Assembly: GCA_027067015.1 (NCBI GenBank)
Contig: JAMOMS010000285.1
Coordinates: forward strand, 1-5,240
Direction of reading: 5' to 3'
DNA: 5,240 bases
Source of the DNA: Campylobacterales bacterium
GTDB lineage: Bacteria > Campylobacterota > Campylobacteria > Campylobacterales > Hydrogenimonadaceae
The translations under genes were made by a program, and so were the position numbers. This document shows, piece by piece, positions 1-5,240 of this stretch (positions are counted from its first letter, which is position 1; the number at the start of each line of letters is the position of its first letter). Under the pieces are notes generated by a model. The model had not been told where the DNA came from. It saw nothing but the letters and a program-made list of their open reading frames with translations, and searched no databases.

Positions 1-185
1 CCGGGAATGGGGATGTTGAACATCATAATCACAAAACTGAGCGCCGTCAGCGAGGCGATGTAAGGGAGCGTCGTCTCATCAAGCTTCGCGCGCACCTTGC
101 GCAGGGCCACCGCCCACAGAGGCAGTGCCACGGCCCACGTCACGGCGCAGGTGGCGGGTGAGAGGTAACCGTCGGGGATATGCAC
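1..185 (-). CDS. cbiM: CbiM/NikM-type cobalt/nickel ECF transporter substrate-capture subunit (N-terminal part, runs off left edge)
   Basis: Reading leftward from GTG at 185-183, the first 61 codons stay open to the window edge. The protein begins MHIPDGYLSP, the near-invariant N-terminus of CbiM/NikM membrane proteins; in this family the first residues, including His2, form the metal-binding site. A hydrophobic stretch follows (residues about 14-28), then a short basic loop, then a second hydrophobic segment ending in FVIMMFNIPIPG (about 50-61), which matches the family's FVIQMFNFPIPGG region. Family role: the integral-membrane substrate-specific component that captures Co2+ or Ni2+ for an energy-coupling-factor transporter, together with CbiN/CbiQ/CbiO-type partners, which would lie further left. 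The GTG start is fixed by the conserved N-terminus and by AAGGAGG four bases upstream. Cobalt and nickel cannot be told apart here; nickel is plausible if the host has Ni-hydrogenases. Confidence 0.9.
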   Translation of the reverse strand, partial: MHIPDGYLSPATCAVTWAVALPLWAVALRKVRAKLDETTLPYIASLTALSFVIMMFNIPIP

Positions 186-198: not shown

Positions 199-214
199 AT
201 GAATGATCATTCAT
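199..214. promoter_or_regulatory. 16-bp perfect palindrome, probable repressor operator of the cbiM-like gene
   Basis: ATGAATGATCATTCAT is a perfect 8+8 palindrome with no spacer. It lies between the -10 box at 226-231 and the Shine-Dalgarno site at 190-196 of the leftward gene. If transcription starts about 7 bases past the -10, the palindrome covers roughly +5 to +20, a classic steric-repression position. The TGAATGA...TCATTCA half-sites resemble those bound by TetR/AcrR-family repressors. A metal regulator such as NikR is an alternative suggested by the target gene, but the spacing does not fit the split NikR sites known from E. coli or Helicobacter. The plus-strand ATG at 203 lies inside the palindrome, so a bound protein could also affect the divergent gene. 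The palindrome is seen directly; the regulator is inferred. Confidence 0.6.
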
Positions 215-961
215 TTTTTGCTACCATTATACGCAAGAAGGGTAAATTGTGCGTTAAAGAAGGAGTTTGTTATCTATTTTTCGGACCAAAGTCCCTGTTG
301 CGGCGCGCCGGTTTACCGTCTCAAAGACGGGCGTATCCGCTGTAGCCACTGCCGACGCCGCTACGGGCTCAAGCGCCTTGAGCGCGAATACCGCCTGATG
401 CAGTGCTTTTGTGACGACCTGAGCGCCCGCCGGGCCGCGCAAAGTGCCCAAACCACCTACGCCACCGCCAAAAAAAGCTACGACCGCTTCCGCCGTCTCC
501 TTCTGCCCTATCTTGAGCACTGCTACACCGCGCACCGCGACGAGGTGGTCGAATATGACGAATACCTCTACCTCGACCACTCCAAACGCCGCGACAAACG
601 CCATATCTTTGACGCCCACAACTTTTTGACCTTTGACTACGGCGGGAAGGTTTACACCATTCTCATGCCGCCGCTGGGACGCTACAAGCACGCCTTTTTG
701 TACGACGGGCTGGAGGATATCTATTATGAGGCGTTCTCCCGGTTTCTCAAAATCCACCGCATTGCCAGACTCCGATCTTTGGAGAACACCATCGTGCGAT
801 TTTGGCGCTATTTTGACGAATTCATGAAAAAGTACAAAGGGATTGAGGCGGATAATTTTATCTACTATCTCAAAGAGGCGGAGTTCAAATTTAACCACCC
901 CAACCCCGAGCGGGAGGAGGTGCTAAGACGACTACTCTATGGCTCAGGGGCGCAGACGTGA
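203..961 (+). CDS. IS1595-like DDE transposase relative, probably a resident or domesticated gene; start uncertain
   Basis: This is the maximal frame (252 aa). Numbered from ATG 203: a zinc-ribbon-like segment at 30-50 (SPCCG...RCSHC), with the usual first Cys replaced by Ser30 and a Cys at 32; a helix-turn-helix-like region at about 58-100; then a DDE-like fold. Candidate catalytic residues are Asp119 in VEYDEYLYL, Asp168 in LYDGL, and the acidic/Asn cluster in YLKEAEFKFNH (222-232), which matches the YLKEFEFRFNHR signature of IS1595/IS1016-type transposases. The segment NTIVRFWRYFDEF (195-207) replaces the usual IHIxGIESFW. I see no terminal inverted repeats or target duplication around the gene, and its 3' end is read into its neighbour's coding sequence, so it does not look like a fresh insertion. 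ATG 203 has no Shine-Dalgarno site and lies in a palindrome; TTG 218 or a start near 249-272 are alternatives. The fold assignment rests on recalled motifs. Confidence 0.72.
   Translation: MIIHFLLPLYARRVNCALKKEFVIYFSDQSPCCGAPVYRLKDGRIRCSHCRRRYGLKRLEREYRLMQCFCDDLSARRAAQSAQTTYATAKKSYDRFRRLLLPYLEHCYTAHRDEVVEYDEYLYLDHSKRRDKRHIFDAHNFLTFDYGGKVYTILMPPLGRYKHAFLYDGLEDIYYEAFSRFLKIHRIARLRSLENTIVRFWRYFDEFMKKYKGIEADNFIYYLKEAEFKFNHPNPEREEVLRRLLYGSGAQT
226..231 (-). promoter_or_regulatory. Probable -10 box (TATAAT) of the cbiM-like gene
   Basis: The minus strand reads GCGTATAATGG, with a perfect TATAAT about 40 bases upstream of the GTG start. No good -35 hexamer is seen at 16-18 bp, which is common for sigma-70 promoters in Campylobacterota, where the -10 dominates. 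The implied leader of about 35 nt contains only the palindrome and the Shine-Dalgarno site, and no room for a cobalamin riboswitch. Confidence 0.55.
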
Positions 962-1465
962 GGGCATGAAGTGCTTGAACTGTTTGGGATAGACAAAAAA
1001 CGCAAGCCGGCCGATCCCCTCATGAAACACCTCTTCCCAACTCTCAATCGGCAGTTCCACGCAGGCTACCCCGCCGGCGGGAAACTTTAAAATGGCCTCG
1101 TGGGTGAGGCGGTGGGCCAGCTCATGAATCTGGGGCGCGTGGGCAATAAGAAAGAGGGTTTGGGTCTCGTCATCCTGCACGGCGATCATCTCCAACATCC
1201 GCTCCACACTGCTTTGGTAGAGCTCGTTGAAAAAAGCGACCGACTTCTCTTCCTCCCAGGGGTTTGCCACAATTTCGGCGGTCTGTTGGGCCCGCATGGC
1301 GCAACTTGAGAGAATGATATCGGGTTCAATCCCTTTTAAAAGCAGATAGGAAGCCATCGTTTTGGCCTCTTTGCGCCCCTTGGCGCTCAACTCCCGCTCC
1401 ATATCGGTCAACAGCGGATCTTCCCAGCTCCCCTTGGCACTGCGAATAAGACAAAGCCGTTTCAT
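944..1465 (-). CDS. SixA-like histidine phosphatase superfamily protein with the catalytic His replaced by Ser
   Basis: 173 aa. The layout follows SixA phosphohistidine phosphatases, which remove phosphate from phospho-His on HPt or related phosphocarrier proteins: MKRLCLIRSAKGSW at the N-terminus (family form LxxxRHAKSxW), LTDMERELSAKGRKEA (20-34), PDIILSSCAMRAQQTAEIV (48-66, with Arg58), NELY (80-83) and FLIAHAPQIHELA (105-117, with His109). Arg8, Arg58 and His109 of the phosphate pocket are kept. The nucleophilic His of the RHG/RHA motif is Ser9 (AGT). The protein is therefore either a non-catalytic phosphohistidine-binding pseudophosphatase or has a changed mechanism. It is the last gene of the kinase-PAS-roadblock unit, starting 5 bp after the roadblock stop with no clear Shine-Dalgarno site, so translational coupling is likely. 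Its last 18 bp overlap the 3' end of the convergent transposase-like gene. The C-terminal tail beyond about residue 145 is unassigned. Confidence 0.85.
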   Translation of the reverse strand: MKRLCLIRSAKGSWEDPLLTDMERELSAKGRKEAKTMASYLLLKGIEPDIILSSCAMRAQQTAEIVANPWEEEKSVAFFNELYQSSVERMLEMIAVQDDETQTLFLIAHAPQIHELAHRLTHEAILKFPAGGVACVELPIESWEEVFHEGIGRLAFFVYPKQFKHFMPSRLRP

Positions 1466-1470
1466 ATAAA

Positions 1471-1860
1471 TCAGAGCCTGGCCAGTTCGTCGGAAATCGA
1501 CTTGGCGATCTTGTCGATCACCATTTTGGCCAGCGCGATATTGCCGTCATCCCGGAAGATGCAAAAAATATCGATTTTGGCAAACTCGTTACCGTGGTGC
1601 TCCCCGGCGCTTTTCACCAGCATCACGTGACCGTCCTGCGTTTTGGTCTCTACCGAAGCCGCCTCGGCGAAACCGATATCCAACGACGTTTCGCTGATGG
1701 TGCGGAAGGTGTCGTTGAAGATGGTGGCGGCATAGGCGATGTCGGTGCCGGTGTGCTCGTTTTCCACATAGAGGGTCTCGCCGGTGTAGTTGAGCACCGC
1801 CGCGCCCAGGTAACCGTTGATTTTGGTCAGTCTTTGCATCTTCTCGTCAAAATTGATCAT
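1471..1860 (-). CDS. Roadblock/LC7-like domain protein
   Basis: 129 aa, with no signal peptide or membrane segment, so cytoplasmic. The pattern fits the roadblock/LC7 fold: an N-terminal helix (1-13); a beta hairpin INGYLGAAVLNYTGETLYVE (14-33), matching the bacterial 'G..GA.l....G..l' start; a long helix (about 40-58); beta strands around AASVETKTQDGHVMLVKSA (67-85) and KIDIFCIFR (95-103); and a C-terminal helix following DDGNIALAKM (104-113), the usual 'd..ni.lar' feature. Bacterial roadblock proteins such as MglB dimerise and act as GTPase-activating partners of Ras-like GTPases or as scaffolds; no GTPase is in this window, so the partner is unknown. The ATG start is well supported: AAGGAG lies 5 bases upstream and overlaps the TAA stop of the preceding PAS gene (9-bp gap), a coupling arrangement. 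The assignment is by pattern, not by a database hit. Confidence 0.7.
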   Translation of the reverse strand: MINFDEKMQRLTKINGYLGAAVLNYTGETLYVENEHTGTDIAYAATIFNDTFRTISETSLDIGFAEAASVETKTQDGHVMLVKSAGEHHGNEFAKIDIFCIFRDDGNIALAKMVIDKIAKSISDELARL

Positions 1861-1869
1861 TCTCTCTCC

Positions 1870-2391
1870 TTATCGGTTCAGGTTTTGCATAAAGGTGTTA
1901 AAACTTTTGGCGTCTGTGAGGCCGTTTTCGTTCAAAAAGGCGTTAAACGCCTGCCAGGAGGCCTCTTCGCTCTCCTCTTTCTCAATCCTCAGCCACTCGG
2001 CGTAAAGTTTGCCTATGGTCTCTTTGGCCTCGGGCTTGACGGCCCGACGGGTGGACATATAGTTACGGAACGAGCCGTCGGGGTTCTTGGCCATCTTGAC
2101 CGTGGCAAGCACCCAGTAGTAACTGCCGTCTTTGCAGAGGTTTTTGACAAAAGCCACCACGTCTTCGCCTTTTTTGATATGCTCCCAAAGATAGCGAAAC
2201 ACCGCTTTGGGCATATCGGGGTGGCGCAAAATGGCATGGGGTTTGTCAAGTAGTTCCCCCTGACTATAGCCCGAGATCTTCACAAAAATGGGGTTGACAT
2301 AGGTAATGTTGCCCTCGGCGTCAGACTTGGAGACAATAAGGTCAATGCTGGTAACCTCTTTTTCATTCTCAATGGGTTCGGGTCGTTGCAT
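1870..2391 (-). CDS. Stand-alone PAS-domain sensor of the Aer/CetB type
   Basis: 173 aa, soluble. A single PAS domain spans about residues 15-118. Its features are those of the Aer/CetB energy-taxis PAS: DAEGNITYVNPIFVKISGYS (24-43), GELLDKPHAILRHPDMP (45-61), a Trp at 69, VKNLCKDGSYYWV (82-94) and YMSTRR (111-116). In E. coli Aer this domain binds FAD and reports redox state. Here the Aer motif PWSGIVKN is replaced by DVVAFVKN (77-84), so the Trp equivalent to Aer Trp70 is missing and the cofactor is uncertain. The C-terminal 55 residues are charged and helical with no HAMP, chemoreceptor or kinase domain, so it must signal through a partner, as CetB does with CetA in Campylobacter. The obvious candidates are the kinase just upstream (13-bp gap) and the roadblock protein just downstream. 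AAGGAG lies 7 bases before the ATG, next to the kinase stop codon. Confidence 0.87.
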   Translation of the reverse strand: MQRPEPIENEKEVTSIDLIVSKSDAEGNITYVNPIFVKISGYSQGELLDKPHAILRHPDMPKAVFRYLWEHIKKGEDVVAFVKNLCKDGSYYWVLATVKMAKNPDGSFRNYMSTRRAVKPEAKETIGKLYAEWLRIEKEESEEASWQAFNAFLNENGLTDAKSFNTFMQNLNR

Positions 2392-2404
2392 GCTCTCACT
2401 CCTT

Positions 2405-4426
2405 TCAGTTGGCTTGGCGGAGAATCGCTTTGATCTCCTCTTTCTTAAACGGTTTGCCCGCGATCACGTCAAACAGATCCCTCTCTTCACGGTCGGGATC
2501 GCCGGAGATGGAGACGGCTTTGATGGGCTGGGCGCCCTCTTGGCTCTCCAACGCGCGATAATCACGCAACATCTCTACCCCGCTCATACCCGGCATCTGC
2601 ATATCGGTATACAACACATCATAGGGCCGACCGGCCAGGAGCGCCTCTTTAAGCAGGAAAAAGCCCTCCAATCCGTCATAAGCCACATCAATGTCACAAT
2701 ACTCCTCTTTCAAAATATTCTGAAGCAGTGCGATACTGATGCGATCATCCTCTACGATCAATACCCGCTTGGGACGGCTGTGAGCCACAAAGTCGGCCAG
2801 GGCCATGCCGTAAAACTCATATTGCGAAACCAGTATGGCCCCCTCATACGCTTTCGGGTCCATGGAGAGGAATGTCTGCTCTACTACCATAAAAGGGATC
2901 TCGTTATCTTGCGCAAACGAGAGTGTCTCTTTGCTAAGACGGTTTTGGAAAAGAATCAGGTTGGTTGTCTCGGCAGGTACCTCAGCCAGGCTTTGCACCG
3001 CTTTGATACGATCGGCGGAGAGGCCCAGGCGCACAAGATAGCGGCCGATATTCTCGGCCACCGCCCAATCTTGTTTATCCATTAAAATAGTAACATAAGC
3101 GTAGTTGAGCCCAAAACCGTCCCGGGGCTTAAACCCTTCAAGCGGCAGGCTGAAGAAAAAGTCACTTCCCTTTTCCAACTCGCTTTGAAGTTGCAGTTCA
3201 CCGCCCATCTGGCGCACATACTCGGCGCAGATACTCAAGCCCAACCCCGTGCCGCCGAAACGGGCTTTGGTATCATCCTCGGCCTGCACAAAGGGCTTGA
3301 AAACCTCCTTTTGCTTCTCAGGCGCAATGCCGATGCCTGTATCTTTGACCGAGACGCTGATACGCTTTTCATCCGCAAGATAGCGGACGCTAAAGTAGAT
3401 ATGCCCACCCTCCGGCGTAAACTTCAGGGCGTTGGAGATAAGGTTCATCACCACCCGCTTGAATTTAACGGTCTCCAACGCCGCCTCCTCGGGAAGCAGA
3501 GGGTCAAGGTAAATATGGTACCCCACCCCTTTTTGGGCCATATTGGCCGAAAAGATATGGGCGATCTCGGCAAAAAAATGGGGAAGCGCCACCCGCTCTT
3601 TCCGGTCGGCCTCCTCACCGGCCAGTTTGGCGGAGAAGGTGTCCAGAATGGAGGTGGTCAACTGGTTAATCAACACGGCACTGCTCTTGGCGTACCCCAC
3701 ATACTCTTTAAGACGCTTATCCTCAATCTGCTCTTCCAGCAGTTCCAGAAAACCGGTCAGGTTATTGGCGGGCGTGCGAATATCATGCACAATCTGGGAA
3801 GTCATGGCCAATAACTCGTTTTGATCCTCCTTGCGGTGGTCGATCTTTTCAATATGCTCCACCTTTTTGGCCACCCGCTCACCGGCGTGCACAAGACAGT
3901 GACACTGGCCGTCGCTCCCCTTTTTGAGGGGTTCCTTGCCCATGTTGGCCATCATCTTGCACACCGCGTCGATCACGAAGGGGGTAATGGAGTGGAAAAT
4001 CTCCAGATCTTTGCGGGTAAAGTTTTTGATCTTTTTGACAGACGAGTAGCAGGTGACAATGCCCACCAACTCTTTTTTGTGCATCAAAGGAATGGCGATT
4101 TTGGATTTGATGCGTATATTGTCGGGGTTGTCAATCTCGGGCACATACCCTTTTTCACTGGTAATATAGTTGTATATAGCGCTTTGGCGGGTAATAAAAC
4201 TTTTGTATAGCAGACCCCTTTTCTCCTCCATCGAAAGCTCCCGCACGCCGCTTTCGCGCTCTCTGAGCAGACGGGGATAGTCGTTGATCCATATAGAGGC
4301 AAACTCCGACTCCATCAGATCGGTAATCACATCTTCAACGATTCGGTTGATCGCTTTGTTATCCGTTAACGCCCGAATCTCTTTGGATGCTTGATCAATG
4401 CGCTCTTTAATTTGCTGTAACTTCAT
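2405..4426 (-). CDS. Hybrid sensor histidine kinase: GAF - HisKA - HATPase - pseudo-receiver - receiver
   Basis: 673 aa from ATG 4426. No membrane segments, so a cytoplasmic sensor. Residues about 15-160 form a GAF-like domain (SKIAIPLMHKKELVGIVTCY, 108-127). A linker carries CHCLVH (175-180). HisKA has the phospho-accepting His214 in VHDIRTP. HATPase motifs are NLISNALKF (328-336, N box), DTGIGI (362-367, G1), FKPF (376-379) and FGGTGLGLS (390-398, G2). Residues about 440-548 look like a degenerate receiver: the strand LILFQN (490-495) has Gln where the Asp should be. The C-terminal receiver (553-673) is intact, with VEDD (558-561), phospho-acceptor Asp608 in YTDMQMPGMSG, and Lys658 in AGKPF. 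Expected chemistry: ATP-dependent autophosphorylation of His214 and transfer to Asp608. The frame extends to TTG 4468, but ATG 4426 is preferred: a possible -10 lies between the two, and GGGGG sits 5 bases before the ATG. First gene of the four-gene unit; the ligand is unknown. Confidence 0.93.
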   Translation of the reverse strand: MKLQQIKERIDQASKEIRALTDNKAINRIVEDVITDLMESEFASIWINDYPRLLRERESGVRELSMEEKRGLLYKSFITRQSAIYNYITSEKGYVPEIDNPDNIRIKSKIAIPLMHKKELVGIVTCYSSVKKIKNFTRKDLEIFHSITPFVIDAVCKMMANMGKEPLKKGSDGQCHCLVHAGERVAKKVEHIEKIDHRKEDQNELLAMTSQIVHDIRTPANNLTGFLELLEEQIEDKRLKEYVGYAKSSAVLINQLTTSILDTFSAKLAGEEADRKERVALPHFFAEIAHIFSANMAQKGVGYHIYLDPLLPEEAALETVKFKRVVMNLISNALKFTPEGGHIYFSVRYLADEKRISVSVKDTGIGIAPEKQKEVFKPFVQAEDDTKARFGGTGLGLSICAEYVRQMGGELQLQSELEKGSDFFFSLPLEGFKPRDGFGLNYAYVTILMDKQDWAVAENIGRYLVRLGLSADRIKAVQSLAEVPAETTNLILFQNRLSKETLSFAQDNEIPFMVVEQTFLSMDPKAYEGAILVSQYEFYGMALADFVAHSRPKRVLIVEDDRISIALLQNILKEEYCDIDVAYDGLEGFFLLKEALLAGRPYDVLYTDMQMPGMSGVEMLRDYRALESQEGAQPIKAVSISGDPDREERDLFDVIAGKPFKKEEIKAILRQAN

Positions 4427-4619: not shown

Positions 4620-5240
4620 CTATCGGTAAATCAGTCGCCCAAATCCCAGTAAAAAGAGCAGGGCCGCCCCGTTTTTGAAAGCGGGATCGTAAAGGAGTAA
4701 AAAGATGGCCCCAAGCATCGCCGCAAACGCCAACAGAACCGGACGCTGGTAGGCCAGGGCCTCTTTTTTGAGCCACTCCAGCTGGCGCAGGGACATCTCC
4801 ACCCGCATCGTCCCCTCGCTGGCCTGGCGAAGGGTGGTTTTGAGGTCTTTAAGTAGCCACGGCGCGTAGGCGATCTCGTCGGCGATCATCTCAATGACGG
4901 AGCTTTTGATGCCAAGGGCTCTTGGAATGTTGGCCTGCAGTACGGGCAGAATATCCTTGATGCCGTTGAAATTGGGGATATAGGTGGTCCCCAGCCCCTC
5001 CACGATGGCGCTGACACGAAGAATGTAGATGGCCTCCTGGGGCAGTTTAAAAGGCAGATTGCGGGTAGACTCCAGCACCTCAAAGGCCAAAGTCTGCATA
5101 TCGATGGCGCTTAAACTCTCATCGGCAAAAATATCAAACATCCGCTCCACAAACTCGGCCAGCTCGCTCTCGGGCGCTTCATAGGCAATAGTTCCCAGCC
5201 GTTTGGCGCTGGCTACGTATCGGCCGTAATCACGCTCATG
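4620..5240 (-). CDS. ubiB: ABC1/AarF/UbiB-family atypical kinase, C-terminal part (runs in from right edge)
   Basis: 206 codons before the TAG at 4622-4620, open to the right edge, so the N-terminus and kinase core lie outside the window. GTG 5150 is an internal codon: the frame continues through it with protein-like sequence (HERDYGRYVASAKRLG...). Recognisable C-terminal features are LPQEAIYILRVSAIVEGLGT followed by YIPNFN (about 66-92 of the visible part), matching the UbiB 'P.e...l.R.....eG....l.p.fn' stretch, an amphipathic helical region, and two hydrophobic segments at about 166-184 and 191-205 that fit the paired C-terminal membrane helices of UbiB. Family role: an inner-membrane ATP-binding protein-kinase-like protein that supports quinone or isoprenoid-lipid biosynthesis. 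In a menaquinone-using host the exact role is unclear, so the symbol is a family label. It is separated from the kinase operon by 193 bp and is probably a separate unit. Confidence 0.8.
   Translation of the reverse strand, partial: HERDYGRYVASAKRLGTIAYEAPESELAEFVERMFDIFADESLSAIDMQTLAFEVLESTRNLPFKLPQEAIYILRVSAIVEGLGTTYIPNFNGIKDILPVLQANIPRALGIKSSVIEMIADEIAYAPWLLKDLKTTLRQASEGTMRVEMSLRQLEWLKKEALAYQRPVLLAFAAMLGAIFLLLYDPAFKNGAALLFLLGFGRLIYR

Follow-up and report, generated by a model that had tools for sequence, protein, structure and literature searches.

The DNA analysed here (the window), a 5,240-bp stretch of a Campylobacterales bacterium that is one entire contig of a 1.6-Mb assembly (297 contigs, 92% complete), carries on its minus strand four genes for a hybrid histidine kinase, an Aer-like PAS protein, a protein of predicted roadblock/LC7 fold and a SixA-like protein. 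With slightly less than even confidence, we read them as a redox signalling module in which a flavin adenine dinucleotide (FAD)-binding PAS protein acts through a roadblock adaptor on the hybrid kinase, the SixA-like protein serving as a non-catalytic, phosphohistidine-binding modulator. The PAS protein would report respiratory redox state via its FAD, as its residues suggest, and the roadblock protein, an adaptor by predicted fold, would relay that signal to the kinase, as the pairing of the genes suggests. Judged by its domains, the kinase would phosphorylate its own receiver and hand the phosphoryl group to an unlinked HPt protein. The SixA-like protein may bind the phosphohistidine of the kinase or of a phosphotransfer partner where its catalytic His has been lost, and may act as a phosphatase where the His is kept. 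A PAS–roadblock contact is suggested because these two form the tightest and best conserved pair; a contact between the roadblock protein and the kinase is inferred as well.

2405..4426, minus strand: hybrid histidine kinase gene, 673 aa from ATG, from open reading frame (ORF) and Pfam
1870..2391, minus strand: Aer-like PAS gene, 173 aa, predicted FAD redox sensor
1471..1860, minus strand: divergent roadblock/LC7-fold gene (RBK), 129 aa, predicted fold
944..1465, minus strand: SixA-like gene, 173 aa, catalytic pair R-H replaced by R8-S9
1439..1441, minus strand: codon 9 of the SixA-like gene, Ser; His in 45/45 non-module SixA proteins examined

Gaps of 13, 9 and 5 bp separate the genes in the order kinase, PAS, roadblock and SixA-like, and the ORF coordinates agree with the co-directional unit proposed earlier from the letters of the DNA (the sequence-only reading). 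Of the Shine-Dalgarno sites claimed there, those before the PAS gene (AAGGAG-like) and the roadblock gene (AGGAGA-like) are present, and the sixA site, located within the end of the roadblock gene, is weak. Promoter and terminator scans of the window gave no clear excess over shuffled sequences (3 versus a mean of 3.8, and 8 versus 6.4, respectively). All seven window proteins were scanned with Pfam and NCBIfam; neither a GTPase nor a DNA-binding regulator was found among them, as had been stated. Overall the earlier interpretation is partly supported: its kinase and PAS assignments hold by Pfam and its roadblock protein by predicted fold, without a Pfam match, while its SixA-like phosphatase-fold protein needs the correction that the catalytic His is missing.

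Sensor, roadblock protein and kinase

The PAS protein matches Pfam PAS_3 (5e-17), and its best match in the PDB is E. coli Aer (4e-24). The FAD contacts described for Aer are His53, Arg57, Trp70, Asn85 and Arg115 (PMC9668731); their window equivalents are H52, R56, W69, N84 and R115, and all five are kept in 29/29 PAS rows (the window and 28 sister loci, one PAS each). Throughout these rows Leu occupies the position of Aer Met69 and Gly that of Ser28, the latter also being the residue at Ser28 in a stabilised form of Aer (PMC9668731). The shared contacts suggest that the PAS protein binds FAD and strengthen the earlier proposal of a redox-type PAS.

The stand-alone PAS protein CetB of C. jejuni resembles the module PAS protein too. 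In place of the setting of Aer and CetB, the module PAS gene sits beside kinase and roadblock genes, and no chemoreceptor partner was seen in the loci. The PAS protein itself consists of PAS only, no chemoreceptor domain was recognised among the seven window proteins, and a pattern for the conserved chemoreceptor tip had no match in 29 loci of 3.6 to 16 kb each. An energy-taxis device, in which the PAS protein would pair with a separate chemoreceptor as CetB does, leaving the kinase and SixA-like protein as bystanders, draws on the Aer-like, stand-alone character of the PAS protein. We regard it as quite unlikely, in view of the missing tip pattern and of kinase and SixA genes that stay adjacent through rearrangements.

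The roadblock protein had no Pfam match at E values up to 1, Robl_LC7 included, and a search of its own genome with the PF03259 profile likewise gave no match. Its AlphaFold2 model (predicted local distance difference test, pLDDT, 89) predicts an MglB-like roadblock fold for the 129-aa protein, whose sequence identity with the listed roadblock structures is about 8-19%. The predicted fold is thus what it has in common with MglB and the roadblock-LC7 proteins, whereas the low identity, the missing Pfam match and the fact that no encoded GTPase was found set it apart.

In the kinase, Pfam recognised HATPase_c (6e-29), Response_reg (5e-12), HisKA (3e-7) and GAF (4e-6), giving a soluble protein with the following layout.

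Residues ~27-147: GAF domain
Residues 207-262: HisKA domain with HDIRTPAN box
Residues 321-430: HATPase_c domain
Residues ~445-550: receiver-like stretch, putative
Residues 555-668: C-terminal receiver

The H-box with the phospho-acceptor His, the N-box, the G-boxes and the receiver Asp are kept in 8/8 aligned kinases; a second alignment of invariant columns had nine rows, including one paralogue without a receiver. Judged by these motifs, the kinase is intact. Its model is of moderate quality (pLDDT 74; predicted template modelling score, pTM, 0.43) and shows a receiver-like order of strands and helices at ~445-550, where Pfam matched no receiver; we read this stretch as a putative pseudo-receiver. 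The kinase had no HPt match in Pfam. The sequence-only reading had suggested looking for HPt proteins, and the window's genome does hold three matches above the cut-off, elsewhere than in the module.

Conservation and rearrangement of the neighbourhood

Related named records come from Campylobacterota, including Nitratifractor and Sulfurimonas, and a first named search found the four genes in the same order in 7/7 loci. Among sampled genomes of the order, 28/398 had a roadblock match (11/87 genera), 25 with the window's roadblock type and three with a more distant type only. The distribution is patchy, the positives including the window's genome and 1/17 other genomes of its genus. A sample of the phylum yielded 13/298 positive genomes, all of the same order (the sample's share outside the order not being listed), and no relative of the module was confirmed on viral contigs.

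The 25 loci of the window's type, L008 and L009 among them, and five named loci (L010-L014) made up a set of 30, or 29 besides the window. The PAS gene was adjacent to and co-directional with the roadblock gene in 28/29. A SixA gene was adjacent in 25/29 (21 on the same strand, four convergent), and a kinase of the same family lay within the set distance of 1400 bp in 23/29 (12 on the same strand, 11 on the opposite one). All three partners were present in 20/29 loci, and 11/29 had the exact co-directional order of the window. The earlier proposal of a dedicated module, which an order unique to this genome was to undo, gains from these counts: the neighbourhood is kept beyond this genome and the order is not unique. 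No SixA gene adjoined the roadblock gene in L065, and L073 ends 33 bp after its roadblock gene.

Linkage kept through strand changes is stronger evidence of function than linkage within a block that never changes. That the four genes merely share an inherited neighbourhood without functional linkage is, in our estimate, very unlikely. Many of the loci come from related genomes of few families and are not independent, and some have flanks in common (L009, L010), as such inheritance would have it; but many of the loci read have different flanks around the same four families, and kinase and SixA genes switch strand and stay adjacent.

In three Sulfurimonas loci, the PAS and roadblock proteins were 64-75% identical to those of the window, and the kinase and SixA proteins 39-43%. 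By these comparisons, the conserved core of the module consists of PAS and roadblock. More distant roadblock genes adjoin hybrid kinases in 4/10 loci (L079, L082, L084 and L085). Same-strand pairs of the more distant roadblock type occur in L077, L080 and L081.

Comparison with the nearest relative (G007, locus L008) gave a different picture for the kinase than for its surroundings. In 200-bp blocks the kinase stretch, 4640-2241, is 69-93% identical, versus 94-100% outside it, with one block at 89%. The kinase has a synonymous divergence (dS) of 1.0, as against 0.11-0.41 in the four further genes tested, and the ratio of non-synonymous to synonymous divergence (dN/dS) is 0.21 for sixA, 0.10 for the kinase, 0.04 for PAS and 0.00 for roadblock. 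Since the kinase is far more diverged than both flanks, allele replacement is the simplest reading: the kinase was apparently swapped between the window and its nearest relative, the other three genes staying in place. The kinase looks like the exchangeable part of the module, and its orientation also varies between genomes. In the window just ~190 bp separate UbiB from the kinase; at this place L008 has a further gene, for a 129-aa protein that looks cytochrome-like by eye. The kinase gene of L058 (6143-8096) is split across two overlapping frames, as would follow from an interrupted gene or a sequence error.

The SixA-like protein and its start codon

The SixA-like protein matches Pfam His_Phos_1 (4e-7) and keeps R8, R58, E81 and H109, which together with its family membership likens it to SixA phosphatases. 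It differs from them in its motif LIRSAK, with Ser in place of the catalytic His where other SixA proteins have R-H, and in its NCBIfam TIGR00249 score of 65.5 bits, under the curated cut-off of 74.5. We take the pocket role of R8, R58 and H109 (two Arg and the distal His) from the SixA family. The window's own genome holds a second SixA match, and a single-sequence protein search with the SixA-like protein was shallow (4 proteins).

We compared 28 module rows (the window, 25 adjacent SixA genes, and the non-adjacent L127 and L134, both of roadblock-positive genomes) with 47 non-module rows, of which 45 are distinct (L140 equals L150, and L142 equals L151); the latter were hand-picked from the rows listed and are mostly high-scoring. 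One of them, L141, is from G021, a genome with a roadblock match, and may be a member of the module subfamily. The catalytic His is replaced in 5/28 module proteins, by Ser in the window, L053, L010 and L014 and by Asn in L054. Arg8 is replaced in 6/28 (L054, which lacks the His too, L055-L057, L058 and L059), so that the R-H pair is altered in 10/28. With L074, which differs at Arg58, and L075, which differs at Arg58 and His109, the altered proteins come to 12/28, as against 0/45 non-module SixA at these four positions.

In a SixA tree built without the catalytic columns and L141, the His was lost twice, once in the window clade (five rows, support 100/97) and once in L014 with P0123. The starred branches force two losses, and a single loss suffices in 0% of 200 bootstrap trees. 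A tree that unites all seven His-less rows in one clade, a group known before the test, was rejected (approximately unbiased test, p 0.002). The tree had been rebuilt in this form because an earlier one, with the catalytic columns and the long-branched L141, was weaker on the number of losses: its starred branches forced only one loss, and 4% of its bootstrap trees needed one.

Absence of the catalytic His from the window and its nearest relatives lends new support to the phosphohistidine reader proposed by the sequence-only reading, and the window protein would be a non-catalytic phosphohistidine binder. In E. coli SixA, the H8A substitution is reported to abolish dephosphorylation of the phosphorylated protein NPr (PMC7948535). 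That result bears on another explanation, according to which the protein is still a phosphatase that ends the signal by altered chemistry, with Ser or another residue as nucleophile or with the assistance of water. The retained Arg8, Arg58, Glu81 and His109 of the window and the His of most orthologues are in its favour; but the Asn of L054 cannot accept a phosphoryl group, six loci have another residue in place of Arg8 and L075 lacks both Arg58 and His109, and we hold continued catalysis in the window to be unlikely. Decay of the window sixA into a pseudogene was considered and disfavoured, given the intact frame, the dN/dS of 0.21 and the absence of the His across the whole supported clade.

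Several observations weigh against a redox module of all four proteins. The catalytic His is kept in 23/28 module SixA proteins, which may confine the reader role to certain lineages, and others may have an active phosphatase; the sixA dN/dS, moreover, is the highest of the four genes (one pair, 15 non-synonymous changes). A same-family kinase is missing within the set distance in 6/29 loci. In L055-L057 and L059, another hybrid kinase of ~1050 aa, of FIST-PAS type (domains checked in L055), adjoins the PAS gene, the module-family kinase lying beyond it on the other strand. L071 has PAS and roadblock genes only, with no kinase, L074 has no recognised kinase and instead a protein of unknown family, and the roadblock gene of L076 lacks both PAS and SixA. 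The loci come from related genomes and so are not independent, and the neighbourhood does not prove contact.

The translation start of sixA is also unusual. At the aligned first codon, 17/25 module sixA genes have ATT, ATC or ATA (L055-L057, L059-L064, L066-L070, L072, L074 and L075), and in 13 of the 17 there is no in-frame ATG, GTG or TTG between the preceding stop and that codon. AAGGAG stands 5-6 bases upstream in, for example, L068, L069, L072 and L074. Counting against unusual starts are an in-frame upstream ATG or TTG in L061, L068, L072 and L075, and a possible start a few codons further in for L055 and L057, although the first strand of the fold would be lost with that inner start. 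The 47 non-module rows have 44 ATG, one GTG, one TTG and one ATT (L141); the window and its close relatives start with ATG. The alignment thus suggests unusual start codons in these genes. The convergent sixA genes (L067-L070) likewise start with ATC or ATT; coupling to the roadblock gene does not account for the starts of these four, and a frameshift from the roadblock gene as an explanation for the missing ATG is disfavoured on the same ground.

A precedent is Streptomyces sigR, which IF3 represses through an unusual start codon (PMC5472188), and by analogy IF3 may act on module sixA. A wider proposal, which we consider rather doubtful, is that the GTPase-free roadblock protein is a redox phosphorelay adaptor whose attached phosphatase repeatedly became a pure phosphohistidine reader, its dose being held low by AUU, AUC or AUA starts in most relatives.

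GTPases and conservons

A profile search found no Ras/MglA-like small GTPase in the window or in its genome as assembled, where at 92% completeness a miss is possible. The PF00071 profile gave four hits in the genome, the frames being 903, 470 (two hits) and 187 aa long, which from their lengths we take to be IF-2, Der and a LepA fragment. Across roadblock-positive genomes a Ras-profile match was found in 10/28, nine of the ten in one family, versus 32/398 overall; the other 18/28 had none at E 1e-8. The co-occurrence of MglA-like GTPases raised by the sequence-only reading is therefore seen as an enrichment among positives but not in the window's own genome, and its GTPase-activating protein (GAP)-like roadblock output is not borne out. 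A GAP role for the roadblock protein, for which the fold is the sole support, was not adopted.

A Ras-family GTPase is encoded near the module, at a distance of ~0.8 to 4.4 kb, in 5/30 loci (L011, L014 and L062-L064). The L011 and L014 enzyme shares a cluster with two proteins, one of BON/OmpA type and one of 189 aa, and its G3 motif lacks Gln. This neighbourhood fits the Group 1 Rup GTPases described in PMC4316618, which likewise miss the G3 Gln, and the Rup account given there has 0/121 of these GTPases coupled to MglB. The Rup-type cluster (L011:9726-12429, L014:10112-12825) sits directly downstream of the module and convergent with it, a GGDEF gene lying between. A Rup-like GTPase is thus found near the module in five loci, but in L011 and L014 it forms a separate cluster with partners of its own, and none was found in the window's genome. 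As an obligate partner the GTPase looked promising in L011 and L014 and was then rejected, being absent from the matches in the window's genome and in 18/28 positives; we consider it an occasional neighbour that is not needed for function.

That the roadblock protein regulates a Ras-like GTPase encoded elsewhere, in the style of a conservon or of MglA/MglB and with the GTPase as output, strikes us as improbable. The MglB-like fold, the five loci with a GTPase nearby and the enrichment of the Ras profile speak for it, and are set against the same negative searches and the Rup affiliation of the L011/L014 enzyme.

The closest known logic, by analogy, is that of the actinobacterial Cvn8 conservon, in which a stand-alone GAF protein (CvnF) stimulates a kinase encoded with a roadblock protein (PMC13343842). 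Conservons bring together genes for a kinase (CvnA) and an MglB-type roadblock protein (CvnB), with CvnC, the GTPase CvnD and the stand-alone sensor CvnF; in the window, too, kinase and roadblock genes lie side by side on one strand with short gaps. The module differs in having a PAS rather than a GAF sensor, a soluble hybrid kinase with a receiver, and an added SixA-like protein. No member of the CvnC family was found among the seven window proteins with Pfam and NCBIfam, and no CvnD GTPase was present in the window or recognised in its genome; by membership, therefore, the module is not a conservon. Among the papers listed in searches of the open-access literature, which mostly lacks subscription journals, none describes this composition by title or start of abstract.

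Bacteria have many orphan roadblock proteins: a 2014 count (PMC4316618) gives 328 MglB homologues uncoupled from MglA and states that none of them had been characterised at that time. The redox module proposed here gives one group of them testable partners in a flavin PAS protein, a hybrid kinase and SixA. Natural variants make the reader idea testable, since one SixA subfamily has lost the His repeatedly and the pockets of the other SixA proteins examined are unchanged. If the wider proposal of a GTPase-free adaptor and a phosphohistidine reader is true, it would provide a natural family of phosphohistidine readers and a GTPase-free counterpart of the conservon.

The remaining features of the window are as follows.

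203-961, plus strand: 252-aa ORF, N-terminus zinc-ribbon-like by eye, weak match to IS1595 transposase (25 bits versus a cut-off of 75)
4620-5240, minus strand: C-terminal part of a UbiB-like protein, weak match, flanking gene end
3-185, minus strand: N-terminal part of the cobalt transporter CbiM, Pfam, flanking gene end

The flanking UbiB-like and CbiM genes appear unrelated to the module. The 252-aa ORF and the SixA-like gene are convergent and share 18 bp at their ends.

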